Shown here piece by piece: positions 2,252-19,634 of a DNA stretch of 36,056 nt. Numbering within the stretch: the first letter of the stretch is position 1; each line of letters starts with the position of its first letter. The stretch covers positions 1 to 36,056 of the forward strand of contig JAJRQE010000212.1 of assembly GCA_024280415.1 (NCBI GenBank), given 5' to 3'. Below the pieces are notes generated by a model. It did not search any database. It was not told where the DNA came from and saw only the letters and a list, made by a program, of their open reading frames with translations. A program made the translations under genes and the position numbers. This DNA comes from Spirochaetota bacterium. Lineage in GTDB: Bacteria; Spirochaetota; Spirochaetia; B11-G9.

Positions 2252-2344
2252 ATGAAATGGGACGACTTACATATATATTTCCCATCTCATACAATCTCCA
2301 GGTATAGTTTGTCTGTTTTTATAATCCGTCTACTACAAAAATGA
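2252..2344 (+). CDS. Possible 30-residue ORF behind a strong ribosome site
   Basis: GGGGGAGG sits 7 nt before ATG 2252, which opens a 30-codon frame beginning MKWDDLHIYF and ending KTGA-like at TGA 2342. It starts just after the 1893 gene and runs into the convergent DUF302 gene by 26 nt. The same DNA contains an imperfect 13-bp inverted repeat (2250-2262 / 2280-2292), so the region might instead fold as a weak terminator between convergent genes. There is no homology that I can name. Confidence 0.22.
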   Translation: MKWDDLHIYFPSHTISRYSLSVFIIRLLQK

Positions 2345-2705
2345 GCTTATCCCTTATTTGAGCAGCAATATCTTTCAAAGCGTCATTATCAATTGCAGTC
2401 ATCGATGCTACAGGATCTACAACCGAGACATCAATGAGACCATCTCCCATCTCCTGTACTACAAAGTTGCAGGGAAGCATAAGTCCAACTCTCTCTTCTG
2501 CAGTAATCGCTTTATTTGAAAAAACCGGATTACAAGCACCTAAGATTCGATATGGTCTGAATTCAACATCAATCTTCTCTTTAAAAAGATCCTTTATATT
2601 TATGTCGGAGAGTATACCAAAACCCTCTTTTTTCAGGCCTTCAGCAATTTTTTCTACAAGCTGGTCAATAGTTCCTTCAATTTTCCTTGAATAATAGTAG
2701 TTCAT
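2319..2705 (-). CDS. DUF302 domain protein
   Basis: A 128-residue cytosolic protein that is essentially one DUF302 domain: an N-terminal strand YYYSRKIEG, a helix (DQLVEKIAEGLKKEGFGIL), then the family core LGACNPVFSNKAI around the single Cys and LPCNFVVQEM. DUF302 proteins often occur beside metal, thiol or sulfur-stress genes, and their biochemical role is unknown. Its ATG overlaps the stop of the upstream SHOCT gene (ATGA, 2702-2705). The two are thus one transcriptional unit, presumably under the CsoR-type operator at 2944-2964. Confidence 0.86.
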   Translation of the reverse strand: MNYYYSRKIEGTIDQLVEKIAEGLKKEGFGILSDINIKDLFKEKIDVEFRPYRILGACNPVFSNKAITAEERVGLMLPCNFVVQEMGDGLIDVSVVDPVASMTAIDNDALKDIAAQIRDKLIFVVDGL

Positions 2706-2923
2706 AAATTTCCATCCTTTAAAATTGTATTTTTCATTTCATCATATTCAATCCGGGAGATCTCCCCGGAGGCAAATCTTTTTTGCAGGATTTCCAGGGA
2801 TGATTTACTGCTGTCTCCCCCGGAACTCTCCCCGAATCCATCAATACTGAGACCCGGTTTACCTCTTAGATAATTAACCAGATAGACAGCACCAATTACT
2901 CCGGCTATTAAAAATATTATCAT
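2702..2923 (-). CDS. Small SHOCT-domain membrane protein
   Basis: I place the start at 2923 (MIIFLIAGVIGAVYLV, ribosome site GGAGGT), giving 73 residues. A longer frame to 2995 would put its first codons inside the promoter and operator. Residues 1-20 form one membrane segment, then there is a Gly/Ser-rich linker. From about residue 44 comes a SHOCT motif (LEILQKRFASGEISRIEYDEMK), the short C-terminal helical domain found on many small membrane and metal-resistance proteins. It is translationally coupled to the DUF302 gene. It has its own promoter and CsoR-like operator just upstream, so it probably responds to copper or sulfane sulfur. Confidence 0.8.
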   Translation of the reverse strand: MIIFLIAGVIGAVYLVNYLRGKPGLSIDGFGESSGGDSSKSSLEILQKRFASGEISRIEYDEMKNTILKDGNL

Positions 2924-2943
2924 CACTTCGCTACCTCCTGTAG

Positions 2944-2995
2944 GTATACCCCCCTTGGGTATACATAAGATAAATATAATCCGCTGAATAGTCAA
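2944..2995 (-). promoter_or_regulatory. Promoter with CsoR/CstR-type operator
   Basis: On the minus strand, the -35 TTGACT (2990-2995), 17-nt spacer and -10 TATCTT (2967-2972) form a good sigma-70-type promoter. Over the expected start lies GTATACCC-N5-GGGTATAC (2944-2964), a perfect dyad with 8-bp arms. It carries the TACCC/GGGTA half-sites typical of operators of the CsoR/RcnR/FrmR/CstR family of copper, nickel, formaldehyde and persulfide sensors. The position fits repression of the SHOCT-DUF302 pair. No CsoR-family gene is in the window, so the regulator must be encoded elsewhere. Confidence 0.74.
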
Positions 2996-3010: not shown

Positions 3011-5473
3011 TCATTCAACACTCACCTTCCGGTCAAGAACAAGTAGAAGTATTGGCACAAATGTAATTGAAGCAGCCAGGCTGAATAGTGTACCGAAAAA
3101 CAACAGTATCCCAAGACCGGAAACAAGAGGATCATGGACAAAATAAAGAGATCCAAATCCAATCATAGTTGTCAGTGATGTAATAATAACAGCCTTCCCT
3201 GATTTTTGAAGCATAGTGCTTATCGATTTATCAGGATCGGAAATATAACTTTGAACCATATGAATTCCGTCATCTACAGCTATACCAAGAATCAGAGGAA
3301 ATGCTGTTATATTGGCTGCATTAAAACTTATCTCAAAAAAAGACATGTATCCAAGAAGGAAAGCAAACCCCGCAAGAACAGGAGACATTACTATAAAAAT
3401 GTATTTTACATTTCTAAAAACCAGGGAAACAATCAATAGAATTGCAAAGAATACCAGAGAAGAACTCCGGACAAGATCAGATCGGATATACTCTACAAGT
3501 TTTACCCACATAAAGGGAGTACCTGTAGATTCAGGATGAATTTCTGTCAGTTCTCTGACTGTCCCCTTCATTTCAGCCTCGTCCCACATATCCGGTTTAC
3601 CATATACAAATATTGCCAGAGAACCATCTTTCCCAAGATATTTATTTTTAAGCTGATCCGGAAGTGATTCAAATGTTACAGGGCCATAATCCTTTATACC
3701 CAGAAGATTCTCGGACAGTATACCCCAAAATGATACAAGCTTCATTTCCAACTCTGAGGGGTTAATATTTATGGAAGAACTGTTCCTATAATAGTTCGAA
3801 AGGACAGGGAGATATTCAGCTATACTGGTATTTTCTCTAAGAAATTTTCTGACCTCTTCTATTCTCAAATCCTGCCCGGTTGGTATAATTGTTGATGGTG
3901 AATCGATGAGTGAATATCTACCGCTCTTTTTTAGTTTTTCGTAGACTTCCCCTGCCTCAGCAATATCTTTAGTACTGACAATACTATACTCAAAGGACAT
4001 TCCCATCTCTTTAATAAGCTCACGCTGCCGCAGAACTGAAGGTATTTCAGGAAGCAGCTCGAAAGCATTATAATTATAACCTATGTTAAAACCTGTAAAA
4101 TATGGAACTGCCATGACTATCAGAAGAACTGAAAGTACTGCAATTTTCTTTTTATTTAAAAATTTAGTATAGATCCTGGAAATACTGATCCCATTATCTG
4201 CCGTCGTCTTACTCCTGGTCTTTAATACCCTCAAAATAACAGGGAGAATAATCAAGACAAGGACTAAACACATTAAAATTCCAGTACCTGCTATAAATCC
4301 CAGCTCCTTAATACCTTTAAATTCTGAAAACATGAGGAGAAAGAAGGCGGCTGCAGTAGTAATTGCTCCTGCGGCAATACCCGGTACAACATTTTTAAAA
4401 ACTTCAGCTACTGCATCAAAATGGCTTTTCCCCTTATCAATTTCATGAAAATAATGGGAAATAAAGTGAATTGAAAAATCGATACCAAGACCCAGTAATA
4501 TTACAGCAAATATACTCGTAACAAGATTAAGCCTCCCAATGACCAATTGGTTTATTCCCAGAGTCCAGACAATTGCTATTAAAACAGGTATGGATGCTAT
4601 CAGAGAGGACCATACTCTTTTGAAAGCTGCCATAAACAGAATAACAATACCCACCAGAGAGAGTAAAGAAACAATCAATATCCTGTTATTCAACAGGGAC
4701 TGCTGCTCTTCCATCATCTTTGCCATGCCATTTACATCTACACTTATTTCGGGATAATCCGGTTTTAGTTCACCTAGAATAGTATTTACATCTGCAGTCA
4801 TCTCTTTGAAAAAAAACATATCATGATTGGGGTTAGTAGGCCTGAGAAACATAATCATTCTATTACTGCTGCTAATATAGTAGTAACCGTTCTCTGTAGT
4901 TAAACTGGATCCACTACCGTTTTTGCTGGATATAAAATTTGAATTATCAGACAAATTCCATCTATTAATTTGTTTCCGCAGCTCAGTATTTCTCTCAACC
5001 AGAAGCTGAAGATTCTTAAAAAACTGAGTACCCTCCGGTTTCTTCATCATAGAACGGTTCAGTATAACTTTATATTTATTGAGAAAGGAGATTATTTCTC
5101 TATAATCATTCTCTCCTGCATAGAGCAAAAAGTTATCCGTAAAAAAATCTACAGGAATACGGTAATCCACAGATAATATCGTATTAGTAAAATCTGACGC
5201 TTTGTTATTTATTTCATTGGCAAATAATTCCATTCTGGATTTATCAGGACCCTCCAATACCAGTATGATATTATCAAATCCACCAAAATTTTTCGAAATT
5301 CTGTTAAATTTAATTATATCTTCGTCCTGGTCCGGAAGTAATGTATAGGTTCCCATTTCTATATTGGTTTTTGAGGCTATGATCCCCCAGAATACAGTAC
5401 CAAGAAGGATCAGAATAACAATAAAGATAGACATATTTCTACTAAAGTTACCGTCAAAAGCTTTTATAGCCAT
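3011..5473 (-). CDS. RND-superfamily exporter of the MMPL/HpnN type
   Basis: An 820-residue inner-membrane protein with the duplicated RND layout. It has an N-terminal membrane helix (14-34), a first large periplasmic domain (about 35-260) and a cluster of five helices (about 265-420) with the family motif LGLGIDFSIHFISHY. Then come a second helix near 445, a second periplasmic domain (about 465-665) and five final helices with LGIAVDDGIHMVQSY. The Asp residues in both motifs are those of the proton-relay region. MMPL/COG1033 proteins move lipids or hydrophobic compounds outward using the proton gradient; the substrate here is unknown. It lies 21 nt after the rhodanese gene, so the two are one operon. 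Confidence 0.9.
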   Translation of the reverse strand: MAIKAFDGNFSRNMSIFIVILILLGTVFWGIIASKTNIEMGTYTLLPDQDEDIIKFNRISKNFGGFDNIILVLEGPDKSRMELFANEINNKASDFTNTILSVDYRIPVDFFTDNFLLYAGENDYREIISFLNKYKVILNRSMMKKPEGTQFFKNLQLLVERNTELRKQINRWNLSDNSNFISSKNGSGSSLTTENGYYYISSSNRMIMFLRPTNPNHDMFFFKEMTADVNTILGELKPDYPEISVDVNGMAKMMEEQQSLLNNRILIVSLLSLVGIVILFMAAFKRVWSSLIASIPVLIAIVWTLGINQLVIGRLNLVTSIFAVILLGLGIDFSIHFISHYFHEIDKGKSHFDAVAEVFKNVVPGIAAGAITTAAAFFLLMFSEFKGIKELGFIAGTGILMCLVLVLIILPVILRVLKTRSKTTADNGISISRIYTKFLNKKKIAVLSVLLIVMAVPYFTGFNIGYNYNAFELLPEIPSVLRQRELIKEMGMSFEYSIVSTKDIAEAGEVYEKLKKSGRYSLIDSPSTIIPTGQDLRIEEVRKFLRENTSIAEYLPVLSNYYRNSSSININPSELEMKLVSFWGILSENLLGIKDYGPVTFESLPDQLKNKYLGKDGSLAIFVYGKPDMWDEAEMKGTVRELTEIHPESTGTPFMWVKLVEYIRSDLVRSSSLVFFAILLIVSLVFRNVKYIFIVMSPVLAGFAFLLGYMSFFEISFNAANITAFPLILGIAVDDGIHMVQSYISDPDKSISTMLQKSGKAVIITSLTTMIGFGSLYFVHDPLVSGLGILLFFGTLFSLAASITFVPILLLVLDRKVSVE

Positions 5474-5494: not shown

Positions 5495-5977
5495 TTATCT
5501 GCTTTTTATAATAAGATCATTTCCAGACCTTTTCCATGCGTTTGAACCACCTGCCAGTTCCACAATATTTGTATATCCAGATTTGACCAACTCTCTGCTT
5601 GCATACTGGCTCATAGGACCACTCATACAGTACAGTACAATAAGTGCATCTTTACGGGGATACTGTTCCATAATATCATTAATTCTATTAAAAGCAATGT
5701 TTGCATCTGTTTTTGGAATTTCACCCTGATAAGGAATATGGACATTAATCAGGTCAAAGTTCTTATTCTCCAGCATTCTTTTCAGCTGATCAGAACTTAC
5801 CTGCCTGTAACCATATCTATTTACGGGAATTTCCTGTAGGAATATACCATTGGGACTAATCGCAAAAGAAGGACTGATCCCAGCCCCATTCATCATACTG
5901 CCGGATTCATTCCCTTCAGGAAAAATCATTCCCACTGTTAAAATACTAAATACTGCAAATGTTAAAATTTTTCTCAT
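5495..5977 (-). CDS. Exported rhodanese-domain protein
   Basis: A 160-residue protein with a signal peptide (MRKILTFAVFSILTVGMIFP, cleavage near residue 20) and a Met-containing mature start (NESGSMMNGAG). One rhodanese domain follows: DLINVHIPYQGEIPKTDANI is the usual 'DVR..E...GHI..A' region in altered form, and LIVLYCMSGPMSQYASREL supplies the active-site Cys loop. The loop CMSGPMS lacks the Arg usual in sulfurtransferases, so the substrate may differ. It probably handles sulfane sulfur or thiols in the periplasm. It is first in an operon with the MMPL exporter. A direct-repeat regulator box lies upstream at 6028-6047. Confidence 0.86.
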   Translation of the reverse strand: MRKILTFAVFSILTVGMIFPEGNESGSMMNGAGISPSFAISPNGIFLQEIPVNRYGYRQVSSDQLKRMLENKNFDLINVHIPYQGEIPKTDANIAFNRINDIMEQYPRKDALIVLYCMSGPMSQYASRELVKSGYTNIVELAGGSNAWKRSGNDLIIKSR

Positions 5978-6009: not shown

Positions 6010-6047
6010 CTTATAGTTAAGCATAGTTTGTGAAAATAATATGAAAG
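6010..6047 (-). promoter_or_regulatory. Response-regulator direct-repeat box and -10 for the rhodanese operon
   Basis: Read toward the rhodanese gene, 6047-6028 is TTTCATAT-TAT-TTTCACAA, preceded by C. The two half-sites have an 11-nt period, typical of OmpR/PhoB-family binding. A TATAAG -10 (6010-6015) lies 12 nt further on, and the box covers the -35 position, as for class II activators. It differs by only two bases from the box before the 15175 gene. Confidence 0.58.
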
Positions 6048-6069
6048 TTAAATAATTATCTATCACTTA

Positions 6070-6098
6070 TTGACTTAGGTATAAAACTTGTGTAATTT
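6070..6098 (+). promoter_or_regulatory. Promoter for the 6113 gene
   Basis: The -35 is TTGACT (6070-6075), the spacer is 17 nt, and the -10 is TAATTT (6093-6098). It is divergent from the rhodanese promoter and leaves a leader of only a few nucleotides before ATG 6113, with no clear ribosome site. Confidence 0.45.
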
Positions 6099-6112
6099 TA
6101 TAGTAGTAAACC

Positions 6113-6487
6113 ATGAATATATTCCGATTCGGCACAGTAATAGCGCTACTTGCTTCACTTTCTACAACTTCACTTTTTTCAGATAACTATACATTGAATC
6201 TCTGTCTGGAGGAAACCTTTTCTCCCAATGAATTTTCTGAACCTGAAGAAATTTCCGGACAAATAAAACTGGAAACTAAGAAATATTTCTGTAATGATGA
6301 ATTGACCATTGATAATGGAATTATAGATAAAACTACCTACATTAAAAATTATCAATACTTCCATTCTAAGAACTTTTCTCCAACTATTAATAATATTCTG
6401 TCAGAGCTTATCCTAGTAGAAAGTTCTTCTAATATTATTAATAATACCGAACTATTATATCTAATTAACAGCTCCTTTCTAATCTAA
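6113..6487 (+). CDS. Hypothetical exported protein
   Basis: A 124-residue protein with a likely signal peptide (residues 1-23, hydrophobic TVIALLASLSTTSLF, then SDN). The mature part is rich in Asn, Glu, Thr and Ile, has two Cys (31 and 60), and has no motif that I recognise. The YTLNLCLEE start of the mature part faintly recalls the first helix of outer-membrane efflux proteins, but nothing else supports that. It has a promoter just upstream but no ribosome site. It lies 62 nt before tlpA in the same direction, so the two may be co-transcribed. Confidence 0.52.
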   Translation: MNIFRFGTVIALLASLSTTSLFSDNYTLNLCLEETFSPNEFSEPEEISGQIKLETKKYFCNDELTIDNGIIDKTTYIKNYQYFHSKNFSPTINNILSELILVESSSNIINNTELLYLINSSFLI

Positions 6488-6549
6488 ATCCTTCATACTC
6501 ATTAACAGTAATTTTAAATTAATTCATTTATTTATCAGGAGGATACATC

Positions 6550-7077
6550 ATGAAAAAAATAATTTTAGTATTAATTATCACCATTTCTATTTCAACTGCT
6601 ATTTCAGCCGCTACCATTCAGGAAAAATTAGCGGAGAACGGGTTTGCTGTAGCAGACAAAACAGTTCCATCAATTAACTTTAAACTGGAAAATATAGAAG
6701 GTATTGAGGAGGAGCTGACCGATTATCGGGGAAAAGTAGTTTTTCTTAACTTCTGGGCAACTTGGTGTGGTCCCTGCCGGTATGAGATGCCCTCTATGGA
6801 AAAACTCTATAAAGAATTCAAGGATGATGGTCTGGCGATACTGGCAATAAACCTGGGAGAAACAGCTCCTGATGTAAGAGAATTTATGGAGAAATATAAG
6901 CTCTCCTTCCCGGCACTTCTGGATACTGACAGATCTGTTTCCTTAAAATATGGAGTCAGAAGCATTCCAACAACCTACCTGATTGGAAGAGACGGCAATA
7001 TTCTTGGGATGGCAGTTGGTGCAAGGGAATGGGATTCCAATGCTATAAAACAGTTGTTCAGAGAGATTCTGGAATAG
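6550..7077 (+). CDS. TlpA/ResA-like periplasmic thioredoxin
   Basis: A 175-residue protein with an N-terminal signal or anchor helix (residues 4-20). The thioredoxin fold has the active site WCGPC at 72-76 (Cys73, Cys76) within FLNFWATWCGPCRYEMP, and cis-Pro in SIPTTYLI. TlpA/ResA proteins reduce disulfides outside the cytoplasm, for cytochrome maturation or metalloprotein assembly, using electrons delivered by CcdA. The ccdA gene follows 28 nt later, so the two form a redox pair. Ribosome site CAGGAGG. No cytochrome gene is nearby, so the client may be one of the Cys/Met-rich metal proteins of this island. Confidence 0.92.
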   Translation: MKKIILVLIITISISTAISAATIQEKLAENGFAVADKTVPSINFKLENIEGIEEELTDYRGKVVFLNFWATWCGPCRYEMPSMEKLYKEFKDDGLAILAINLGETAPDVREFMEKYKLSFPALLDTDRSVSLKYGVRSIPTTYLIGRDGNILGMAVGAREWDSNAIKQLFREILE

Positions 7078-7105
7078 AGATTTATTTAAGTATATAGGAC
7101 ATATC

Positions 7106-8065
7106 ATGAATATAAATATCTTTCTTGCTTTTACGGCAGGACTAATATCATTTCTTTCTCCCTGTATTTTTCCTGTTATCCCATCCTATCTTTCATATAT
7201 CAGTGGTCTTAGTATTTCCAATTTTACCAGTCAGAAAGGTAACAAGTGGAATCTACTGATGAATTCAATACTCTTTGTTTTCGGGTTTACAATAATCTTT
7301 GTTCTAATGGGTATTTTTTTCAGTAGTTTAGGCATCGCACTAAGCGGAATAACCAGGTATATCAATATGGTTGCCGGAGTTATAGTTATATTTCTGGGGT
7401 TTAATTTTATTTTTAATTTCTGGAAGATTTTGAACCTGGAAAAAAGAATCCATTTTAAACACAGACCAGCTGGAAAACCGGGTTCTGTTCTTCTTGGAAT
7501 GGCATTTGGTGCAGGATGGACCCCCTGTATAGGCCCCATCCTTGCATCAATCCTTATTGTAGCCGGTTCCTCAGGATCTGTTTACAGAGGAGCTGCTCTG
7601 CTCTTTGCATTTTCAACAGGACTAGGGATTCCCTTTATTTTAGCAGGACTGTTTTTTTCTTTTTTTCAGAAAACTATAGTCAAAATACGCCCACATTTAA
7701 ACCGGATAAAAACTCTAAGTGGATTGTTTCTTATTATAATTGGAATTCTAATTTTCAGTGGCCAGCTTTCAAAAATGAATATTCTTCTGTATGCATATGC
7801 CAATAAATTACATAACTGGGAGATAAACCATTTATATGCATCAAGAGCTGTTTACGGATCAATTTTCTTTATTCCTTCATTATTTGCTGCAGCAGGAGCC
7901 TGGAGATCCTTCACTAAATATACAAAAATGAACCTGAAACACTTTACCCCTATTTTATGGTTCGGGCTATTCCTGATTCTGGTGAGTGCTGCAGTACTTA
8001 TCTATTCCGGTTTTTTTGAAATTGGAAAACTGATACAAAAATGGCTTACTTTTCAGGGAATATAG
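7106..8065 (+). CDS. ccdA: CcdA/DsbD-type thiol electron transporter
   Basis: A 319-residue polytopic membrane protein. The hallmark cysteines are Cys20 in FLSPCIFPVIPSYLSY and Cys141 in GAGWTPCIGPILASIL. They relay electrons from cytosolic thioredoxin to periplasmic TlpA-like partners. Six helices of the CcdA core occupy about residues 1-215. About 90 extra C-terminal residues hold further hydrophobic segments (about 247-265 and 283-306), making it longer than typical CcdA. It follows tlpA by 28 nt. A response-regulator box for the next gene begins 12 nt after its stop. Confidence 0.92.
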   Translation: MNINIFLAFTAGLISFLSPCIFPVIPSYLSYISGLSISNFTSQKGNKWNLLMNSILFVFGFTIIFVLMGIFFSSLGIALSGITRYINMVAGVIVIFLGFNFIFNFWKILNLEKRIHFKHRPAGKPGSVLLGMAFGAGWTPCIGPILASILIVAGSSGSVYRGAALLFAFSTGLGIPFILAGLFFSFFQKTIVKIRPHLNRIKTLSGLFLIIIGILIFSGQLSKMNILLYAYANKLHNWEINHLYASRAVYGSIFFIPSLFAAAGAWRSFTKYTKMNLKHFTPILWFGLFLILVSAAVLIYSGFFEIGKLIQKWLTFQGI

Positions 8066-8076
8066 TTTTACTGTCT

Positions 8077-8096
8077 CTTTCACAATATTTTCATAA
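8077..8096 (+). promoter_or_regulatory. Response-regulator direct-repeat box before the 8159 gene
   Basis: C followed by TTTCACAA-TAT-TTTCATAA, two half-sites with an 11-nt period. It differs by one base from the box at 15229-15248 and by three from that at 6028-6047, and has the same orientation relative to its gene. The downstream -10 is not clear (TAAGTT at 8105 is a weak candidate). Confidence 0.6.
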
Positions 8097-8158
8097 TTGT
8101 TAAGTAAGTTCGAGCCATCAAAATGAGGTACAGAGTAAAAAATTTATGGAGGTGGTTT

Positions 8159-8857
8159 ATGAGTAAAAAAAGGAAATGGATCCTTACAACTGTTGCAGTT
8201 GCTGCAGTTATACTGGCCGGTGGTGGATATGCCTGGGGCAGATTAGGTTATTCCGGTTTTGGAATGATGGGGGGATTCGGTACAGGTTCGGGTATGATGG
8301 GTTTCAGCACCTCTAATATCAGTTCATCGGGTAAAAGGTTAACCCCGGATAGAGTCGAAGCAGAACTGGAAAATTTTTTACTCTCCTACTATGACAATAG
8401 TTTTTATATCGAGGAAGTAATGGAGTTCAGTAATAATTATTATGCCCAGATAGGACATAAGGATGAGGAAACACTGGCTTTTGAACTTTTAATTGATCCC
8501 TACAGCGGTTCAATAAGTGAAGAACCCGGTCCCAATATGATGTGGAACAGGAGCTATGGTCAGATGCGATGGAGATTCTGGAACAAAAACCGAAAGATGT
8601 CCGTATCCGAACCTGAAGCAGTAACGGCAGCACAGGAATATCTTGACCGCTATCAGCCCGGCAGCAAAGCAGAACCCCATGCTGACAAGTTCAATGGTTA
8701 CTACACAATACATACTGTCAACAAAAAAGGAGAGGTAACGGGTATGTTGAGTGTTAATGGATACAACAGCAGGGTCTGGTACCATAACTGGCATGGCGCA
8801 AACTTAGCTGTGCTTAGTTCTGGTACCTTATCAGAGGAAGATAATGAAGAATATTAA
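8159..8857 (+). CDS. Exported Met-rich PepSY-like protein (paralog of the 14399 gene)
   Basis: I choose ATG 8159, with GGAGGTGG just upstream, over an in-frame ATG at 8123, giving 232 residues. A membrane or signal helix (about 8-27) is followed by a Met/Gly/Phe stretch (GFGMMGGFGTGSGMMGF). Then come two PepSY/YpeB-like repeats: one at about 58-125 ending EPGPNMMWN, one at about 140-215 with YYTIHTV and GMLSVNGYNSRVWYHNWHG. The same two signature segments occur in the protein encoded at 14399-15175. Met-, His- and Trp-rich exported proteins beside a copper ATPase suggest periplasmic Cu(I) binding or sensing, which is inference. A response-regulator box precedes it. Confidence 0.8.
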   Translation: MSKKRKWILTTVAVAAVILAGGGYAWGRLGYSGFGMMGGFGTGSGMMGFSTSNISSSGKRLTPDRVEAELENFLLSYYDNSFYIEEVMEFSNNYYAQIGHKDEETLAFELLIDPYSGSISEEPGPNMMWNRSYGQMRWRFWNKNRKMSVSEPEAVTAAQEYLDRYQPGSKAEPHADKFNGYYTIHTVNKKGEVTGMLSVNGYNSRVWYHNWHGANLAVLSSGTLSEEDNEEY

Positions 8858-8898
8858 AACAAATAGGTTTATAAATTATTTCTGTGTAAACTATTATA

Positions 8899-8927
8899 TT
8901 GATTTAACAGGAAATCAGACTTATACT
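8899..8927 (+). promoter_or_regulatory. Promoter of the copper ATPase gene
   Basis: The -35 is TTGATT (8899-8904), the spacer is 17 nt, and the -10 is TATACT (8922-8927). A small dyad ACTAC-N7-GTAGT lies just downstream (about 8926-8942) and could be an operator. The leader to ATG 8968 is about 35 nt. Confidence 0.58.
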
Positions 8928-8967
8928 ACTTTTACGGTAGTCTTTAAAAAATCCAATGGAGGGAGTT

Positions 8968-11385
8968 ATGTCAGAATACAAATGTCCAATGTCATGTGAA
9001 GGTGATAAAACCTATGAAAAACCGGGGTCCTGTCCGGTTTGTGGTATGTTTCTTAAAGCCGCAGGTGATGAAGAAGATCACTCGGGTCATGATCACTCGG
9101 GTCATGATCACTCAAGTCACTCACACTCAAGTCATGATCACACTCAAAAGACTCTGTGCATCTGCGGTGATGAGGATTGTTCAGGATCCTGTAAAACAAA
9201 CTGCCAATGTACTTTCCAGGAATTGGTTCTTAACCAGGAAGTAATAACAGATGTCGCCCCTGAAAAAAATGGTGAATTTATCTGTCCAATGAGATGTGAA
9301 GACGATAAAACATACCCTGAACCGGGTTCCTGCCCTGTCTGCGGGATGCACCTTAATAGGGTAATTGCTTTTGGAGTACCTCAGCCTGAAAAAGAAACAG
9401 ATGAAGTCAAGGCTTTCAAGGATATGCGGCTCAAGTTTATAGTTGGAGCAATATTCTCTTTTCCAATACTTATCCTTGCCATGTCGGAACTTATACCCGG
9501 GGCATCTGAATTGATAAAAACCTACATCAGTCCTCAGGCAAATCAGCTGGCTCAATTTATACTTTCCATTCCTGTAATGTTCTATGCAGGTTTCTTTATT
9601 TACAAAAGGGGAGTACTTAGTCTGATTACCAGAAACCTGAATATGTTTACCCTAATAATGATCGGTACCGGCGCTGCCTGGATATACAGCTTTTTCGGCT
9701 TGTTCTTTCCAGAATTTTTTCCAAACTCCCTGCTGAATGCAGAAGGTCAGATTCCGGGATATTTCGAAGCTGCCTCTGTTATTATTACTCTCGTTATTCT
9801 GGGACAGCTGCTGGAACTTCTTGCCCATGTAAGAACCAATTCGGCTATTAAAGAGTTATTAAATCTTGTTCCCGCAACAGCCTTTGTTATTCGTAACGGA
9901 GAGGAGAAAGAAGTTCCACTTTCGGAGGTTCATGTTAATGATATTCTAAAAGTAAGACCTGGAGACAAAATTCCTGTTGACGGAGTAATTCAGGAAGGAA
10001 ACGGTATTGTTGATGAGTCAATGATTACTGGAGAACCTCTGCCTGTCGATAAGGAAGTGGGTGATGAAGTAACAGGTGGGACGATCAACTCCAATGGCAG
10101 TTTTTTAATGACTGCAGTTAAGGTTGGCGGAGAAACCCTGCTGGCAAGAATTATTAATATGGTTAATGAGGCCTCCCGGTCAAAGGCACCTATCCAGAAA
10201 ATAGCCGATAAGGTATCCGGAGTCTTCGTTCCTGCGGTAGTGGCAATTGCAGTAATTACAATGATTGTCTGGGGACTGAACGGATCCTGGGATCTGGGCT
10301 TTGTCTATGCCATTGCTGTTCTCATAATTGCCTGCCCATGTGCTCTCGGACTGGCAACCCCTGTTTCCATAATGGTAGGAACAGGTCGTGCCGCCCAAAC
10401 AGGAATTCTTATAAAGAATGCCAGAGCACTGGAACAGATGAGAAAAGTTACAGCCGTAATGGTGGATAAAACAGGAACACTTACAGAAGGAAAGCCTGCA
10501 GTCCATATGTTTAAAAGCCTCGGTTCATATTCGGATAAAGAAATCCTGCAGATTGCGGCTTCTGTGGACTCAAACAGTGAGCATCCTCTTGCAAAAGCAA
10601 TTATTGATGCTTCCAAAGAAGAAAATCTGGAACTTAAAAAGACATCGGACTTTACTTCCATTACAGGAAAGGGTGTTCTTGCTAAAATTGGGAACAAACA
10701 GATTGGAGTAGGCAGTTTAAAATTACTGGAACACTTCAATATAGAATTACCAAAACTGGAAGATTCTATTACTGACCTGCAGAAAAAAGGCCACACACTG
10801 ATATACATTTTATCGGATGAGAAACTTGCCGGAGTACTAAGTATTACTGATAAAATAAAGGCTTCCACTCTTGCAGCAGTAAAAACTCTGCAGCATAATC
10901 ATATTAAGGTAATTATGATGACCGGAGATAATAAAATGACTGCTGCTGCTGTTTCCGAAGAGCTACATCTGGATGATTTTTATGCAGAATGTATGCCCGA
11001 GGATAAATACCGCCTGGTCAAAGAACTACAGGAAAAAGGCGAGATTGTGTGTATGGCTGGTGACGGTATAAATGATGCACCTGCTCTGGCTCTGGCGGAT
11101 GTTGGAATTGCCATGGGTACCGGAACTGACGTCGCCATGGAGAGTGCCTCTATTACCCTGGTAAAGGGAGATCTTATGGGGATATCCAAATCCAGCATTC
11201 TCAGCACAAGGGTAATGGGCAACATAAAACAAAACCTTTTCTTTGCATTTGTTTATAACGGGATTGGGATTCCTATTGCAGCTCTGGGACTGCTTAATCC
11301 AATATTTGCAGGACTGGCAATGTCATTCAGTTCCGTATCTGTCCTTGTAAATTCTCTCAGATTAAAGAGAGTCTCTTTTGATTAG
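8968..11385 (+). CDS. copA: Cu+-exporting P1B-type ATPase with double HMBD and His/Cys-rich N-terminus
   Basis: I choose ATG 8968 because GGAGGG sits 5 nt before it (an in-frame ATG at 8956 lies in front of that site), giving 805 residues. The order is HMBD-type metal site (5-30, with CPM and CPVCGM), a His-rich run (38-58), a Cys cluster (Cys64, 66, 71, 75, 79 and 81), a second HMBD (105-130), then the ATPase core. Its CPC motif is at 456-458, the phosphorylated Asp is at 500 in DKTGT, and SEHPLA and [19 protein letters not shown] follow. The last helices carry YNGIGIPIA and MSFSSVSVL, the Cu(I)-specific signature. It pumps Cu+ out of the cytosol. The next gene overlaps it by 8 nt. Confidence 0.93.
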
Positions 11386-12076
11386 AGGGTTTTCTCCAAG
11401 GCTGAAGCTTTCCGTCTTTTTTATATTGATGGCTGCTTTAGCCATAGGAACCCCTCATCTGTTTGACGGGCATCTTTTTTTAAATAAAAAGTATGCCCAG
11501 TCAGCAGTAATATTTTTAGATTTTGCCTTGTCGTTTTTTTTAGGCTATAACTATCTGAAAGATCTGGATAAAATTAATAAAGAAAAAAAATATTCTGAAA
11601 GACTACTCAATAAATCGTATAAGCACCTGGGAGTAACCAACCGTAAAATTGGTATTCTACAGGATTTTATCAGTATAATGGCAGATGAAAATATAGATTC
11701 AAGAAAAATAATTATGTCTCTGACAGAATACCTTGTCTATTCAATTACCAAGTCTTCCAATGGCATAGTCAGATTTATAGACAGAAGTAACAGCAGAACT
11801 ATGACGGAGTGGAATATTCTGGCCAAAGGGCCGGAAGTAATTAAGATATCAAATAGAAAAATCCTTAACGGAGAGCAGTCCGGATCACTTAATGAAAATT
11901 TTCAATACATTAAAAGCAGACTGGCACATACTAAAGTGGAATGTGCTTTTATTTTTGACTCGGACTGCAGTGATTTTGATTCTTCATTCCTGATGATACT
12001 GTTAACACAAATACACTCCCTTGGAATTGTACAGAAGCAGATACCACATATAAAAACAGAAGTATCTTCTTTATAA
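11378..12076 (+). CDS. Two-helix membrane protein with coiled coil and GAF-like domain, function unknown
   Basis: A 232-residue protein starting at TTG 11378, which overlaps the stop of the copper ATPase gene by 8 nt, so translation is likely coupled. Two membrane helices (about 10-29 and 41-57) are followed by a charged helical linker (residues 60-95). A mixed alpha/beta region (about 96-225, with [15 protein letters not shown] and [16 protein letters not shown]) resembles a degenerate GAF or sensor-input domain, but no output domain follows. It may be an accessory sensor working with the two-component system next door, or a regulator of the ATPase. That is inference from position; I do not recognise the family. 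Confidence 0.66.
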
Positions 12077-12113
12077 GAATAATAATTAAGGTATTGTGCA
12101 GTTAAAATAGGTT

Positions 12114-13580
12114 TTATACTGATTCACTTAGATTAAAAATACAGCTGATAGTTGTACCCTCTCCCACAACACTTTCTGCTGTAATTCTCCCCCCATGGGA
12201 TTCCACAATAGTTTTGGAGATTGAAAGGCCAAGTCCTGTGCCTCCACTCCCCCTGGAACGTGATGTGTCCACCCTGTAGAAACGGTCAAATATCATAGGA
12301 AGCTGTTCCTTCTCTATACCTATTCCGGAGTCTGTAACAGAAATTACAAGCTCATTTTCGTCACTATTCCGAACTAATTGAGCTGCGATAATTATTTTAC
12401 TTCCTCCGGGACTGTATCTAATAGAATTCGAGAGTAAATTATTAAGAACCTGCCTGATTCTCCTCTCATCAAGCCGTACAAGAGGAATATCCCTGTCATA
12501 TTTCTTTACAAGTAATATTTTCTTCTCCATAGCAGAACTCTTGAATGATTTAAAAACATTATCCAGAATATTATAAATATTTTCATCTTTTAAATTTAGA
12601 AGTTTTGTACTTACTTCAAAACTTTCCAGAAGCTGAAGATCCTCCACTATACTGGACAGAATTACGGTGTCCTGATAAATATTTTTTATTGTTCCTATCT
12701 CCAGAGGATAGACACCATCCAGAATTGCCTCAAGTTCCCCCTGAATAGTAGTAATAGGAGTACGGATCTCATGGGCAATATCTGCAGTCAGCTGGCTCCG
12801 CCATTTCTTGGCTTCTGATAATTTGCTGCTCATTTCATTAAAATTATTTGCAAGATTATTTATCTCATCTTCACTGTCAATCGATACCTGAACATCAAGA
12901 TCTCCTTCTGTAATCTGGCTTATTGCTTTTGACAGATGATTAAGGGGAGACACAATTGACGACACAAAGTAATACCCCAGAACTATGGAAATTAAAACAA
13001 TTATCAATGATGACAAGCCAATAGCCCAGTTTACAGATCGCAAAAAATATTTATCCATGGGATTCAAAACCGGATCAATCATACTCCCATAAAGAACTGT
13101 TCCAACTATTATTTCTGCAGACCGTATGGGAACCCCCTTAAGCCAGTGCTCAGGGGGGTGGACTTCTCCCACCTTTAGGTTCATGGAATCTGTAATTATC
13201 TGACCGCTATTGTTAATAAGAATGAGTCTTTGAGAATTCTCCAGAAGAGGGATCGCAGCAGGCTCCATCATATTCTGATGATTAGTATAGCGGCCCATAA
13301 GCATACTCATTCTGTCCCGTGAGTCCTTCCAGATTGTATGAACGAAGTTATTAACATTTTCCCAGGAATTATCATTTATCTCGTAATATTTTTTTAGCAG
13401 AATTGCATAATCTTTTGCAATTATCAGATCACTGTCCAGTATAAAACGTTTAAACTGCCGGGTCGTTAAAAGATTTACCGAAATGAGCATTATTGAAGCA
13501 ACTGAAATTATTAATACAGCAAATATTCCGAGAAGCTTAACAGTTAGTTTACTCCTTCGGGTTTTGGTAAAGTTACTCAA
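12114..13580 (-). CDS. Sensor histidine kinase (OmpR-system partner, CusS/BaeS-like)
   Basis: A 488-residue membrane kinase. It has helix 1 (about 14-36), a periplasmic sensor (about 40-180), helix 2 (about 185-207), a HAMP linker (about 208-260), the HisKA box with His270 in ADIAHEIRTPI, and HATPase motifs near the C-terminus (NNLLSNSIRYSPGG, DSGIGI, GGTGLGLSIS). The sensor contains MSMLMGRYTNHQNMM, a Met/His cluster that could bind Cu(I)/Ag(I). It starts at TTG 13580, overlapping the regulator stop by 8 nt. The copper ATPase and Met-rich proteins on both sides suggest it senses periplasmic copper or envelope stress. Confidence 0.92.
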   Translation of the reverse strand: MSNFTKTRRSKLTVKLLGIFAVLIISVASIMLISVNLLTTRQFKRFILDSDLIIAKDYAILLKKYYEINDNSWENVNNFVHTIWKDSRDRMSMLMGRYTNHQNMMEPAAIPLLENSQRLILINNSGQIITDSMNLKVGEVHPPEHWLKGVPIRSAEIIVGTVLYGSMIDPVLNPMDKYFLRSVNWAIGLSSLIIVLISIVLGYYFVSSIVSPLNHLSKAISQITEGDLDVQVSIDSEDEINNLANNFNEMSSKLSEAKKWRSQLTADIAHEIRTPITTIQGELEAILDGVYPLEIGTIKNIYQDTVILSSIVEDLQLLESFEVSTKLLNLKDENIYNILDNVFKSFKSSAMEKKILLVKKYDRDIPLVRLDERRIRQVLNNLLSNSIRYSPGGSKIIIAAQLVRNSDENELVISVTDSGIGIEKEQLPMIFDRFYRVDTSRSRGSGGTGLGLSISKTIVESHGGRITAESVVGEGTTISCIFNLSESV

Positions 13581-14256
13581 ATTTATACCCTACCCCGTGA
13601 ACTGTATGAATAAGCCCCGCTTTGTTCCCCGATTCTCCAATAAGCTTTCGAATATTTTTAATATGCGCATCGATAGTCCGTTCAAAAATCTCCCCCTCTG
13701 CCTGAATCTGCTCAAGCAGTGCAGCTCTGGAAAAAACCTGTCCCGGAGACTTAATGAATGTTTCTAGTATTCTGAACTGCAGTGCAGTAATATCGATCTC
13801 AATGTTTTTATAAAACACTTCCTGTCGTTCAGAATCCAGAATTAAATCCTTATACTTTATCTGTCTGGAAATACCCCGGGATCCGGGCTGATCATATTCA
13901 ACTCGCCTGAACAAAGCATCCACTCTTGCTACCATCTCGTTGGGACTAAATGGTTTTACAATATAATCATCTGCTCCAAGCTTCAGTCCGGTCAGTTTAT
14001 CGTTCTCTTCAGATTTAGCTGTCAGCATGATTATCGGAACCGAGGAATTTTTTCTAACTCTCTTTACTATCTCCAGACCGGATAATCCCGGAAGCATTAC
14101 ATCCAGTATAAGAAGATCCGGCTGATTTTTTTCAAAGGATTTAACTGCCGACAGGCCGTCAAAAGCAAGAAGTGTATTATACCCGTCTCGTTTCAGATAC
14201 GACTGAATTAATAATGCTACCCTGGAATGATCCTCAACAATCAACACTGTTTTCAT
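13573..14256 (-). CDS. OmpR/PhoB-family response regulator
   Basis: A 227-residue protein. The receiver domain (1-117) has acidic Glu8/Asp9, the phosphoacceptor Asp52 in LLILDVMLPG, switch Thr79 and Lys101 in DYIVKPFSP. The winged-helix DNA-binding domain (about 130-227) ends with HTVHGVGYKFE. Partner of the overlapping kinase gene. OmpR-family proteins bind direct repeats with a period of 10-11 nt. The three TTTCAYAA-N3-TTTCAYAA boxes at 6028, 8077 and 15229 are the obvious candidate targets. No such box precedes its own gene. Confidence 0.94.
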   Translation of the reverse strand: MKTVLIVEDHSRVALLIQSYLKRDGYNTLLAFDGLSAVKSFEKNQPDLLILDVMLPGLSGLEIVKRVRKNSSVPIIMLTAKSEENDKLTGLKLGADDYIVKPFSPNEMVARVDALFRRVEYDQPGSRGISRQIKYKDLILDSERQEVFYKNIEIDITALQFRILETFIKSPGQVFSRAALLEQIQAEGEIFERTIDAHIKNIRKLIGESGNKAGLIHTVHGVGYKFE

Positions 14257-14344
14257 TATTAACTATTCTCCTCTTGGCATACTATATCACATTAGGCAGA
14301 GTGTCATTCCAGCAAGTGATTTCCCACAGTATTCATTAATTTAC

Positions 14345-14383
14345 AAAAGGCTCCCCGAATATTGATAGCCGGGAAGCCCTTTT
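14345..14383 (-). terminator. Bidirectional-looking intrinsic terminator
   Basis: AAAAGGCTCCCCG (14345-14357) pairs with CGGGAAGCCCTTTT (14370-14383) with one mismatch, leaving a 12-nt loop, with A/T tracts on both outer sides. It terminates the Met-rich gene (stop at 14399) before the regulator-kinase operon, which starts at 14256. Confidence 0.76.
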
Positions 14384-14398
14384 GAATTCGAATTGTTA

Positions 14399-15175
14399 TC
14401 AGGAGTGATCGTCATCACCCTCTTCCATCTGTACAATTGAACCATGCCAGGAGTGATACCAGATATCCCCGGTATAACCATTTACGCTGAGCATACCTTC
14501 GACTTTACCATCCTTTACGGTATGGATTGTATAATATCCGTAAAATCTGTCAGCATGTTCCTCTGCCACAAGATCAGCAGAATTAGCAGAGAGAAACTCA
14601 CCTGCTTTTATTATTGCATCTTCTTCTGTAAGAGTCATCTCTTCCGAACTAAAGCCACCCATAGGACCATACTTTGCATTCCACATCATATTCGGACCTG
14701 GCTCACCACTAACATAACCGTAGTAGGGGTCAACTAATAGTTCGAAAGCGTTGATACCTGTGTCAGATTCTTTAATCTGTGCATAAAAATTACCCTGGAA
14801 TTCCATTATTTCGTTTAGTTCAAGATTTTCCATTCTTCTGTCATTTAAATACTCCAAAACTTTACCTTTTGCCTCATCAATGGAAAGGCGTTCACCTGGA
14901 GGATTATCTGTATTAATTCCAAATCCACCCATCGTCCCGAAAGAACCGTTTCCTCCCATCATACCATAGGATCCATTTCCTCCCATCATACCGTAGGAAC
15001 CATTTCCTCCCATCATACCGTAGGAGCCGGAGCCGTTGAAGGATTCCTCATCCATCATTCCATTTCCCCAGTACCTGCCCTCTGTATTTTCCCTTTCTCC
15101 TTCTGCCGATACAAACGTAACTGCTGTAAGTAATAACAGTGTTGATAAAACAAGAGTATAAGCTATTCTCTTCAT
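14399..15175 (-). CDS. Exported Met-rich PepSY-like protein with GSYGMMGGN tandem repeats
   Basis: I choose ATG 15175 (ribosome site AAAGGAAGG) rather than a frame reaching 15301, giving 258 residues. A signal peptide with cleavage after VSA (about residue 22) is followed by an acidic segment. Three near-identical copies of GSYGMMGGN and a fourth variant (GSFGTMGG) follow, at about residues 50-85. Then come two PepSY/YpeB-like units with EPGPNMMWN, YYTIHTV and GMLSVNGYTGDIWYHSWHG, shared with the 8159 protein. A Met/Gly repeat in the periplasm suggests Cu(I) or Ag(I) binding (inference). It is driven by the box and -10 at 15210-15248. Confidence 0.85.
   Translation of the reverse strand: MKRIAYTLVLSTLLLLTAVTFVSAEGERENTEGRYWGNGMMDEESFNGSGSYGMMGGNGSYGMMGGNGSYGMMGGNGSFGTMGGFGINTDNPPGERLSIDEAKGKVLEYLNDRRMENLELNEIMEFQGNFYAQIKESDTGINAFELLVDPYYGYVSGEPGPNMMWNAKYGPMGGFSSEEMTLTEEDAIIKAGEFLSANSADLVAEEHADRFYGYYTIHTVKDGKVEGMLSVNGYTGDIWYHSWHGSIVQMEEGDDDHS
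14930..15030 (-). repeat. 27-nt in-gene tandem repeats encoding GSYGMMGGN
   Basis: Four consecutive units of 27 nt, three nearly identical, encode the Met/Gly-rich repeat of the exported protein. Synonymous differences are few, so the array is recently amplified or kept homogeneous. It is a probable site of copy-number variation between strains. Confidence 0.8.
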
Positions 15176-15209
15176 AAATTTCCTTCCTTTAAGATTTTTC
15201 TTTTTGCTG

Positions 15210-15248
15210 ATTATAATGTAGAGATACGTTATGAAAATATTATGAAAG
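15210..15248 (-). promoter_or_regulatory. Promoter with response-regulator box for the 15175 gene
   Basis: Read toward the gene: C-TTTCATAA-TAT-TTTCATAA (15248-15229), a 13-nt gap, then -10 TATAAT (15215-15210). The box replaces a recognisable -35, the usual arrangement for activation by a PhoB/OmpR-type regulator. This copy is the most symmetrical of the three, with identical half-sites. Confidence 0.65.
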
Positions 15249-15350: not shown

Positions 15351-15710
15351 ATGAAACAGGACGAAGGAAAATGCAAGACATATTTAATTCACCCGAACAC
15401 AGTGGAAAAAGTGCTGCAGGATATTCCGCAAGAGGAACTTTTAATAGATCTTGCAGATTTTTTTAAAATATTTGGAGATACCACACGTATAAGGATACTC
15501 AGTGCACTCTTTGTTACCGAGATGTGTGTGTGTGATCTTTCTGAAGTCCTTGGGGTAAGTCAGTCAGCAATGTCCCATCAATTAAAAACACTGCGTCAGG
15601 CAGGGCTTGTAAAATACAGAAAAGAGGGAAAGTCAGCTGTCTACTCTCTCAAAGATAATCATGTAAAGCAGATTATCGATACAGGAATTATCCATATCAC
15701 AGAGCAATAA
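15351..15710 (+). CDS. ArsR/SmtB-family metal-sensing repressor
   Basis: A 119-residue winged-helix repressor. It carries both classic metal sites: the alpha-3 type with Cys59-x-Cys61-Asp62 in EMCVCDL, as in CadC/ArsR, and the alpha-5 type with Asp102, His104, His115 and Glu118, as in SmtB/CzrA. The recognition helix is VSQSAMSHQLKTLRQAGLV. The presence of both sites suggests a sensor for Zn plus softer Cd/Pb. It is the first gene of an operon, 10 nt before the P1B-ATPase, with its operator at 15312-15337. It should repress its own operon until metal binds. Confidence 0.93.
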   Translation: MKQDEGKCKTYLIHPNTVEKVLQDIPQEELLIDLADFFKIFGDTTRIRILSALFVTEMCVCDLSEVLGVSQSAMSHQLKTLRQAGLVKYRKEGKSAVYSLKDNHVKQIIDTGIIHITEQ

Positions 15711-15720
15711 GGAGAACGAG

Positions 15721-17799
15721 ATGGAAAAATATAGATTAAGGAACCTGGATTGTGCAGACTGTGCATTAAAAATTGAGACGGGCCTTAAAAAACTGGATAG
15801 CGTAAACTTTGCTTCTATAAATTTTGCAACAGCCCAGCTCCGGATAGATACAGAAAACATAGAGGAAGCAGAAAAGCTGATTAAGGATCTGGAGCCTGAA
15901 GTAGAACTTGTTGGTCAGACAGCTCATAGTCATGAGCAGGATGAAGACCTTAATTTAAAAACTGAACTGATCCGTCTGGGTCTGCTGCTTGCCTCATTTG
16001 CAGGAGGTTTAATATTTATAGACAAACTGGAGGCCACTCCATTTCATCTGGGAGAATGGGTTGTATTCCTTGCTGTCTATCTTTTCAGCGGTTGGAAAGT
16101 TCTCCGGGCTGCCGGGCGTAATATACTTAAGGGTCGTATTTTTGACGAAAACTTCCTTATGGCAATCGCTACTATTGGTGCAATGTTCATTCATGCTCTG
16201 CCTGAAGCTGCAGGGGTCATGATTTTCTTTACTGTAGGAGAATTTTTCGAAGATCTTGCCCTTGCCAGATCCAGGAAATCAATAAAAGCCCTTATGGAAA
16301 TACGTCCGGATTCAGCCAGAATACTAAAAGATGGCGAGTATGTAGATATTAGCCCTGAGGGAGTGAAAACAGGTAGTACAATTCTGGTCAAACCCGGAGA
16401 ACGTGTACCTCTGGATGGAGAAGTTATCTCGGGAGATTCCCAGGTTGACACATCTGCCCTGACAGGAGAATCTGTACCGAGAACTATTAATAAAGGTTCA
16501 GTAATTCTGGCAGGAATGGTTCTGCTTTCCGGTTCTCTGACTATAAAAACAACAAAAACTTTTGCAAATTCATCTCTTTCCAGAATTCTTGAACTTGTGG
16601 AAGATGCTCTTCAGAAAAAAGCAAAAACAGAAAAATTCATTACAACATTTGCACGTTACTACACCCCCATAATAGTTTTTTCTGCTCTTGGAATAGCTCT
16701 CCTGCCACCTTTGCTTGTTCCTGGAGCACTTTTTAGCACATGGATCTACCGTGCGCTGGTAATCCTTGTAATTTCCTGTCCCTGTGCTCTGGTTATAAGC
16801 ATTCCCCTGGGATATTTCGGTGGAATTGGAGGCGCATCCCGAAAAGGTATTCTTATAAAAGGTTCCAACTACATTGATATTCTGGCTAAGGTTAAAACAG
16901 TTGTGTTTGATAAAACAGGAACCCTCACAACAGGAACTTTTGAAGTAACAGAGATCAATCCAAGAAACGGTTTTTCCAGAGATGATATTATTAAAACCGC
17001 TGCTCTTGCCGAAGCACATTCAAACCACCCCGTTGCTCTCTCCATAAAAAAAGCCTGGGGAGGAGAGGTTCGTGAATCAGACGTAACTTCCCACGAAGAT
17101 ATACCTGGTTATGGAATAAAAGCAATAATCGATGGAAAAACTATTCTTGTAGGTAATGACAGACTTCTTCATAGAGAAAATATTAAACATACCGACTGTG
17201 AGATAGCGGCAACAGTAGCATATGTTGTAATAGACAGCGTTTACAGCGGATATATTATTATCAGTGACCGAATAAAGGAGGATTCTGCAAAAGCCCTTAG
17301 GGAATTAAAAAAACTAGGTATCCAAAAGACAGTGATGCTGACAGGTGACAACGAAAAAACTGCAAAAAGTGTCGCTGCAGAAATTGGTATTGACGAATAC
17401 TATGCAGAACTTCTACCGGATGACAAAGTTAAGAAACTGACAGAGATTATATCTGCAAATAATGGTTATACAGCATTTGTCGGAGACGGTATCAATGATG
17501 CTCCGGTAATTGCCCTGGCAGATGCCGGTATTGCAATGGGAGAACTGGGATCGGATGCTGCAATAGAAACAGCAGACATTGTTCTTATGACAGACGCTCC
17601 GTCTAAAATAGCCCAGGCTGTTAAAATAAGCAGAAAAACCCGCACAATAGTAATTCAGAATATTACCATAGCACTTGTTATAAAACTGGTTTTTGTAGGA
17701 TTAGGTATAGCAGGTCTTGCAGGAATGTGGGAAGCAGTATTTGCAGATGTAGGAGTTGCGCTTATAGCAATTTTTAATGCCTTAAGGGTTTTAAAGTAG
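15721..17799 (+). CDS. zntA: Zn2+/Cd2+/Pb2+-exporting P1B-type ATPase
   Basis: A 692-residue pump. Residues 1-65 form an HMA-like domain with Asp10-Cys11-x-x-Cys14 in LDCADCALKIE, the DCxxC form favoured by Zn/Cd pumps. Membrane helices follow, then the CPC motif at 353-355 in VISCPCALVISIPLGY. The phosphorylated Asp397 lies in DKTGT, the HP motif in AHSNHPVAL, and the hinge in [19 protein letters not shown]. The C-terminal helix contains FADVGVALIAIFNALR, with the Asp typical of the Zn/Cd class. It exports divalent soft metals from the cytosol. It is co-transcribed with the ArsR-type repressor and ends at a strong terminator. Confidence 0.93.
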   Translation: MEKYRLRNLDCADCALKIETGLKKLDSVNFASINFATAQLRIDTENIEEAEKLIKDLEPEVELVGQTAHSHEQDEDLNLKTELIRLGLLLASFAGGLIFIDKLEATPFHLGEWVVFLAVYLFSGWKVLRAAGRNILKGRIFDENFLMAIATIGAMFIHALPEAAGVMIFFTVGEFFEDLALARSRKSIKALMEIRPDSARILKDGEYVDISPEGVKTGSTILVKPGERVPLDGEVISGDSQVDTSALTGESVPRTINKGSVILAGMVLLSGSLTIKTTKTFANSSLSRILELVEDALQKKAKTEKFITTFARYYTPIIVFSALGIALLPPLLVPGALFSTWIYRALVILVISCPCALVISIPLGYFGGIGGASRKGILIKGSNYIDILAKVKTVVFDKTGTLTTGTFEVTEINPRNGFSRDDIIKTAALAEAHSNHPVALSIKKAWGGEVRESDVTSHEDIPGYGIKAIIDGKTILVGNDRLLHRENIKHTDCEIAATVAYVVIDSVYSGYIIISDRIKEDSAKALRELKKLGIQKTVMLTGDNEKTAKSVAAEIGIDEYYAELLPDDKVKKLTEIISANNGYTAFVGDGINDAPVIALADAGIAMGELGSDAAIETADIVLMTDAPSKIAQAVKISRKTRTIVIQNITIALVIKLVFVGLGIAGLAGMWEAVFADVGVALIAIFNALRVLK

Positions 17800-19618: not shown

Positions 19619-19634
19619 ACAGGAGTAAGAACAG

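Follow-up and report, generated by a model that had tools for sequence, protein, structure and literature searches.

A direct-repeat box as the candidate operator of a BaeR-like copper/silver regulon in Spirochaetota

Three promoters in a 36,056-nucleotide (nt) contig from a Spirochaetota bacterium (JAJRQE010000212.1 of assembly GCA_024280415.1, analyzed at its full length and hereafter called the window) carry nearly identical direct repeats ahead of metal and envelope genes, which raises the question of whether one regulator reads all of them. A preliminary description of this DNA had placed the repeats at 15248-15229, 8077-8096 and 6047-6028, and all three were confirmed there. Box 1, CTTTCATAATATTTTCATAA (CTTTCATAA-TAT-TTTCATAA; 15229..15248, minus strand), is the proposed operator of an operon encoding a PepSY-like protein (PepSY1), a response regulator and a sensor kinase. 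Box 2, CTTTCACAATATTTTCATAA (CTTTCACAA-TAT-TTTCATAA; 8077..8096, plus strand), is the proposed operator of an operon of a second PepSY-like gene (PepSY2) and a copper ATPase, and box 3, CTTTCATATTATTTTCACAA (CTTTCATAT-TAT-TTTCACAA; 6028..6047, minus strand), that of a rhodanese-MMPL-SHOCT-DUF302 cluster. As previously claimed, the boxes differ pairwise by 1-3 bases per 20, and each precedes the gene of an exported protein (PepSY1, PepSY2 or the rhodanese). We consider it probable that a BaeR-like regulator encoded in the window binds the repeat over the -35 region and activates a copper/silver envelope-stress regulon that includes its own operon. The evidence comprises the boxes themselves, their rarity, conservation and fixed spacing, their co-occurrence with the regulator, and their link to copper genes in two phyla.

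Allowing at most two mismatches, the pattern TTTCAYAANNNTTTCAYAA matched the 36-kb window three times, compared with 0.40 matches expected from dinucleotide shuffles. The exact pattern, TTTCAYAWNNNTTTCAYAA, matched the 3.91-Mb assembly four times against approximately 0.1 expected from base composition, whereas the preliminary description had named hundreds of unrelated matches as grounds for abandoning the box. This pattern was derived from the three window sites, which are themselves three of its four genome matches; the fourth was found blind on another contig of the same genome (C199:2415-2433). Genome scans were pattern searches paired with reversed-pattern controls. At two mismatches the pattern was not enriched over its reversed control across the whole genome, and relaxed scans (2-3 mismatches, no -10 element required) were drowned by background. 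The other single-mismatch matches in the same genome include one on C37 and four that were checked (C112, C200, C263 and C313), and these four showed no promoter-like placement.

One comparison covered a family of eight genomes, namely the source genome (G000) and seven relatives (G001-G007). An ortholog of the window regulator was found in one of the seven relatives, the Spirochaetia metagenome-assembled genome G002 (contig JAQIBN010000262.1), where it is 82% identical. The same genome holds three exact boxes, all at orthologous genes: ahead of the PepSY1-regulator-kinase operon, ahead of the ATPase (the PepSY2 gene being missing there), and ahead of the ortholog of a gene for a membrane protein of 293 amino acids (aa) that is boxed elsewhere in the source genome. 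The exact box occurred zero times in the six relatives without the regulator ortholog. Between the source genome and G002, the boxes at these three sites are identical at 20/20, 19/20 and 15/20 positions and the -10 hexamers at 6/6, 6/6 and 4/6, against 36-44% identity over the 59 nt upstream. Box 1 is the 20/20 case, next to an upstream flank matching at 22/59 positions, and box 2 (19/20) still stands ahead of the ATPase despite the loss of PepSY2. Functional constraint on the box is well supported. A single-mismatch box in G002 also leads a PepSY fragment with a DUF302 gene, and genes for a CsoR-type repressor and a CopA-like ATPase run divergently from it. On contig C149 of G002 (L071 441-686), the truncated PepSY gene has retained its box opposite the CsoR and CopA-like genes and is probably a decaying copy. 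Across 297 genomes of the class, box plus -10 with at most one mismatch gave 14 matches, nine of them in the source genome and G002; the other five equal the number from the reversed control (5). A single-mismatch match in G006 falls inside a transporter gene.

Spacing to the -10 element revised one part of the earlier account. In 20 boxes picked blind to the -10, TANNNT begins 8 nt past the second octamer in 17, and any other offset occurs in at most 3. The -10 elements previously placed at 12-13 nt are therefore replaced by this conserved element, and the general form becomes NTTCAYAN-N3-NTTCAYAN-N8-TANNNT. Box 1 is followed at this distance by TACATT (15215..15220, minus strand), identical in G002, with TATAAT 13 nt past the box as an alternative candidate. 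Box 2 has TAAGTT (8105..8110, plus strand), backed by the offset count and the G002 comparison, and box 3 has the -10-like TAACTA (6014..6019, minus strand), whose final base deviates from TANNNT. Two half-sites in tandem, repeating about every 11 nt, and a fixed -10 spacing (17/20 at +8) are both features of OmpR/PhoB-type operators. The E. coli phoA promoter, which reads CTGTCATAAAGTTGTCACGG, 8 nt, TATAGT (a sequence matched in 5,212 E. coli genomes), has the same layout, with two 11-nt direct repeats over the -35 and a -10 at 8 nt. A PHO box consists of two direct repeats of 11 nt (PMC4415409), and spacing is strict in PhoB promoters (PMC10294691). Because the layout is that of phoA and PhoB promoters keep strict spacing, the box would by analogy work in the manner of a PhoB operator, with TTTCA replacing TGTCA.

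Box and regulator also occur together far outside the family. We scanned upstream of 87 PepSY homologs, whose sources include Spirochaetota, Chloroflexota and archaea, and found TTCAY-N6-TTCAY-N10-TANNNT at 11 of the 87 compared with 0.005 in shuffles, three of these 11 loci belonging to the source genome or G002. Altering the half-site gap to N5 or N7 gave zero matches upstream of the same homologs. A box (at least 13 of 15 core positions) was present at 13 of 21 PepSY loci with an adjacent regulator versus 9 of 73 without one (Fisher 1.4e-5). Scanning 19 of these genomes returned 14 matches, eight already known and six new, against zero for the reversed control. Twelve of the 14 lie at PepSY, CopA, multicopper oxidase or Met-rich genes, the new ones including a multicopper oxidase, a CopA-like ATPase in Rectinema subterraneum and Met-rich exported proteins (three sites). 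The remaining two precede an exported nitroreductase-like gene in the Rectinema island and an archaeal adenylate kinase gene, the latter probably by chance. R. subterraneum has the same island type, with PepSY, an HMBD ATPase, CopA and a regulator with the helix DAHIKNIR. Its island (L299 1-18001) also encodes an FTR1-like permease and a TauE-like fusion protein and holds three boxes, including the one ahead of the nitroreductase-like gene.

Could three AT-rich promoters simply look alike? The octamers are AT-rich, and at two mismatches the reversed control matches at least as often as the pattern itself. Set against this are the C199 and G002 sites found blind, the distant boxes with zero control matches, and conservation of the box over its flanks in G002. 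Chance likeness is accordingly very improbable and, as far as sequence allows, already refuted; the box is real.

Which protein reads it? The OmpR-type pair noted earlier inside the island holds up, with a receiver domain (PF00072) and a winged-helix Trans_reg_C domain (PF00486) in the regulator and box 1 ahead of the pair's own operon. The response regulator (13573..14256, minus strand; OmpR/PhoB family, BaeR-like, recognition helix ERTIDAHIKNIRKL) is the putative box binder. Its closest solved structure is BaeR 4b09, and BaeR (40.5% identity) is the nearest of the four E. coli regulators compared. The sensor histidine kinase (12114..13580, minus strand) is closest to BaeS among those compared and has a Met-rich periplasmic stretch, MSMLMGRYTNHQNMMEP. 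We surveyed 58 OmpR-family regulators from the eight related genomes, reading recognition helices by alignment. The HIKN helix was present in nine. Seven of the nine have their own promoter in full, each with a box (at least 13/15) in it, compared with 0 of 48 others. Box-linked regulators are BaeR-like with a D-x-H-(I/V/M)-K-N helix. PhoB touches a guanine through Arg201 in its DNA-bound structure (PMC3973317); the window regulator has Asn at that position, a substitution that might by analogy explain the change from TGTCA to TTTCA. Assignment of the box to this regulator is likely from these patterns.

Several points weigh against this assignment or narrow its reach. The scan pattern was made from the source-genome sites that it recovers, so that the independent evidence consists of C199, G002 and the distant sites, together with the lack of boxes in the other genomes of the class beyond the control level. 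Several HIKN regulators in distant genomes have no linked box, and the helix is therefore insufficient for the box. No orthologous site was found for the rhodanese-MMPL box (box 3), the least supported of the three. The metal is deduced purely from gene content. Finally, the source genome encodes a paralogous HIKN regulator (contig C292) whose own promoter holds a similar box, and this protein could occupy the sites assigned to the window regulator. The boxes might then be real operators read by this paralog, alone or jointly with the window regulator. Its recognition helix, ERTIDVHIKNIRKA, is nearly identical, NTTCAYAN-type boxes stand at its own promoter in every related genome where that promoter is complete, and a Met-rich loop recurs in its kinase, as read in G006. 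Yet G001 and G003-G007 carry the paralog and have zero window-type boxes, and in the two species with the window regulator, box 1 lies ahead of the operon that encodes it. We regard the paralog as an unlikely reader because six genomes that contain it lack the window-type box. This second BaeR-like regulator/kinase pair recurs across the related genomes (L294, which is G000 C292, and L257, L265, L272, L280, L283 and L289) with an NTTCAYAN-type box at its own promoter; some members have TTTAC as the second repeat and a different -10 spacing.

We next consider how the regulon led by the window regulator would operate. The BaeR-like regulator (13573-14256) would have the repeat as its operator: two of its DNA-binding domains would sit head-to-tail on the two octamers (11-nt period), which span the -35 region. 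As with PhoB, the bound regulator would recruit sigma-70-type RNA polymerase to a -10 hexamer at the fixed distance of 8 nt downstream. The regulator would probably be phosphorylated by the Met-rich sensor kinase (12114-13580) when this kinase senses Cu(I)/Ag(I) in the periplasm. The regulator would then induce its own operon, PepSY2 with the copper-type ATPase, and the rhodanese-MMPL-SHOCT-DUF302 cluster, as well as both arms of a divergent pair elsewhere in the genome, one for the 293-aa membrane protein and the other for an exported protein, CcmE and CcmF. In this account we infer from sequence that the regulator binds, is phosphorylated and activates rather than represses, and we infer the metal in the same way.

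Gene content of the boxed operons underlies the choice of metal. Box 1 lies ahead of PepSY1 (14399..15175, minus strand), an exported Met-rich PepSY-like protein and first gene of an operon whose regulator and kinase genes share its strand, so this arrangement would mean autoregulation. The PepSY-like proteins had no match in Pfam. An AlphaFold model of PepSY1 has two helix-plus-sheet units behind a disordered Met-rich stretch, and its best fold match in the PDB is the YpeB C-terminal domain; the PepSY-like label is only moderately backed by the predicted structure, since TM-scores were low. Box 2 leads PepSY2 (8159..8857, plus strand), an exported Met-rich PepSY-like protein 42% identical to PepSY1, followed by a copper-type heavy-metal P-type ATPase with HMBD domains (8956..11385, plus strand) and a 232-aa protein without an assigned family (11378..12076, plus strand), whose gene overlaps the end of the ATPase gene and has an ortholog behind the ATPase in G002 too. 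Box 3 leads an exported rhodanese-domain protein (5495..5977), an MMPL/RND-type exporter (3011..5473), a small SHOCT-like membrane protein, SSLEILQKRFASGEISRIEYDEMK (2702..2995; family assigned by eye, without a profile search), and a DUF302 protein (2319..2705), all on the minus strand; a DUF302 gene also lies behind the boxed PepSY fragment in G002.

The blind match on C199 extends the predicted regulon further. This exact box lies 42 nt ahead of the gene for an exported 321-aa protein, which is followed by ccmE and ccmF, and a near-identical copy (C199:2572-2590) is 140 bp off, in the opposite direction, ahead of the gene for the 293-aa membrane protein. The region (L031 991-3520) thus contains a divergent promoter pair with two boxes, and the 293-aa protein has no known Pfam family. 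Such a pair would place cytochrome c maturation under the same regulator. The idea of a single regulon under the island's OmpR-type regulator is supported by co-occurrence of box and ortholog among the eight genomes, by orthologous sites, by PepSY-regulator operons in other phyla and by the pairing of box and recognition helix within the family. With respect to its members, the sites of both PepSY-like operons are conserved in G002, and the rhodanese-MMPL site is the weakest. On sequence grounds, the predicted regulon exceeds the set first proposed, adding the copper-type P-type ATPase, the SHOCT-like and DUF302 proteins, the 293-aa membrane protein and the ccmE/ccmF operon.

These targets bear on what the signal is. 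A true BaeR-like envelope-stress operator need not be copper-specific, and might respond to damaged periplasmic proteins with metals among several inducers. The regulator and kinase are nearest to BaeR and BaeS among those compared, and targets include the MMPL exporter, the rhodanese and cytochrome c maturation genes. However, targets across genomes are mainly copper ATPases, a multicopper oxidase and Met-rich proteins, and the Met-rich sensor loop also argues for copper. We therefore consider a broader envelope-stress signal doubtful, though a less remote prospect than the paralog. Judged by gene content and the Met-rich sensor loop, the signal is best read as copper or silver.

Comparison with known systems places the regulon within a familiar type. 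Membership in the Pho regulon was rejected, as the half-site has TTTCA rather than TGTCA and the regulator scores 212 bits against a cut-off of 296 (TIGR02154). The PHO box half-site is (C)TGTCAT versus TTTCAYAW here, and its targets concern phosphate rather than metal and envelope genes. Membership in the CreBC regulon was likewise rejected (NF008296, 190 bits versus 273). The CreB/BlrA tag is TTCACN6TTCAC (PMC4689548), with the same core half-site and period as our general box, TTCAY-N6-TTCAY, which contains the tag feature. The CreB helix is HIKT rather than HIKN, the targets differ and, unlike the boxes here, the E. coli creD promoter has no TANNNT at +8 that could be seen by eye.

BaeSR membership failed as well (NF007982, 206 bits versus 380). 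The E. coli BaeR helix, RTIDSHIKNLRRKL, shares HIKN with ERTIDAHIKNIRKL, and the BaeR half-site TCTNCANAA resembles TTTCAYAA (PMC3799227), but the targets here are of copper type. In the E. coli mdtA promoter (L219), CTCCATTT and CTCCCTTA lie 11 nt apart and about 9 nt ahead of TACACT, and judging from this promoter the BaeR operator may share the geometry of the box. CusR/CopR heavy-metal membership was also excluded (TIGR01387, 147 bits versus 279). CusR and CopR too are OmpR-family regulators that act in periplasmic copper stress, although a palindrome, AAAATGACAATTTTGTCATTTT, takes the place of a direct repeat in the E. coli cusC-cusR region. Synechocystis copMRS, which acts in copper resistance, joins the gene of an exported Met-rich protein to those of a response regulator and a kinase (PMC4335983). 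The box-1 operon has the same plan, but the first gene of copMRS encodes the DUF305 protein CopM rather than a PepSY-like protein without a Pfam family; the likeness is one of operon plan. In the literature that we searched, neither the box nor any PepSY regulon linked to copper had been described, and this would be a new regulon within the familiar OmpR/PhoB direct-repeat operator type.

Some neighboring features are worth recording. Divergent from the box-1 operon, 15351-17799 encodes an ArsR-type repressor and a Zn/Cd-type P-type ATPase without a box, so that two metal systems under different control adjoin one another. Behind the Zn/Cd ATPase lie a PAS-containing histidine kinase and a sigma-54-type response regulator (18275-20663). 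Boxes also precede small Met-rich SHOCT-like membrane proteins adjoining PepSY genes in Spirochaetota and Chloroflexota (L163 2611, L166 2496, L108 4855 and L093 7735), and the box-3 cluster of the window likewise holds a SHOCT-like gene (2702-2995).

The box probably marks a widespread, so far unstudied copper-stress regulon. We lean toward a single Cu/Ag regulon spanning Spirochaetota and Chloroflexota, governed by an unnamed BaeR-like clade with the D-x-H-(I/V/M)-K-N helix at NTTCAYAN-N3-NTTCAYAN-N8-TANNNT promoters, with Met-rich PepSY-like proteins as hallmark targets and copper export coupled to cytochrome c maturation in this lineage. The finding offers a concrete candidate operator and regulator for copper handling in uncultured members of both phyla. 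The difference between the HIKN helix with its TTCAY box and PhoB Arg201 with TGTCA constitutes a natural difference in specificity, and Rectinema subterraneum, a named strain with the same island type, is a possible experimental host. Shared control suggests roles for families that have had none, including the Met-rich PepSY-like proteins, their DUF302 and SHOCT-like neighbors, and the 293-aa membrane protein.

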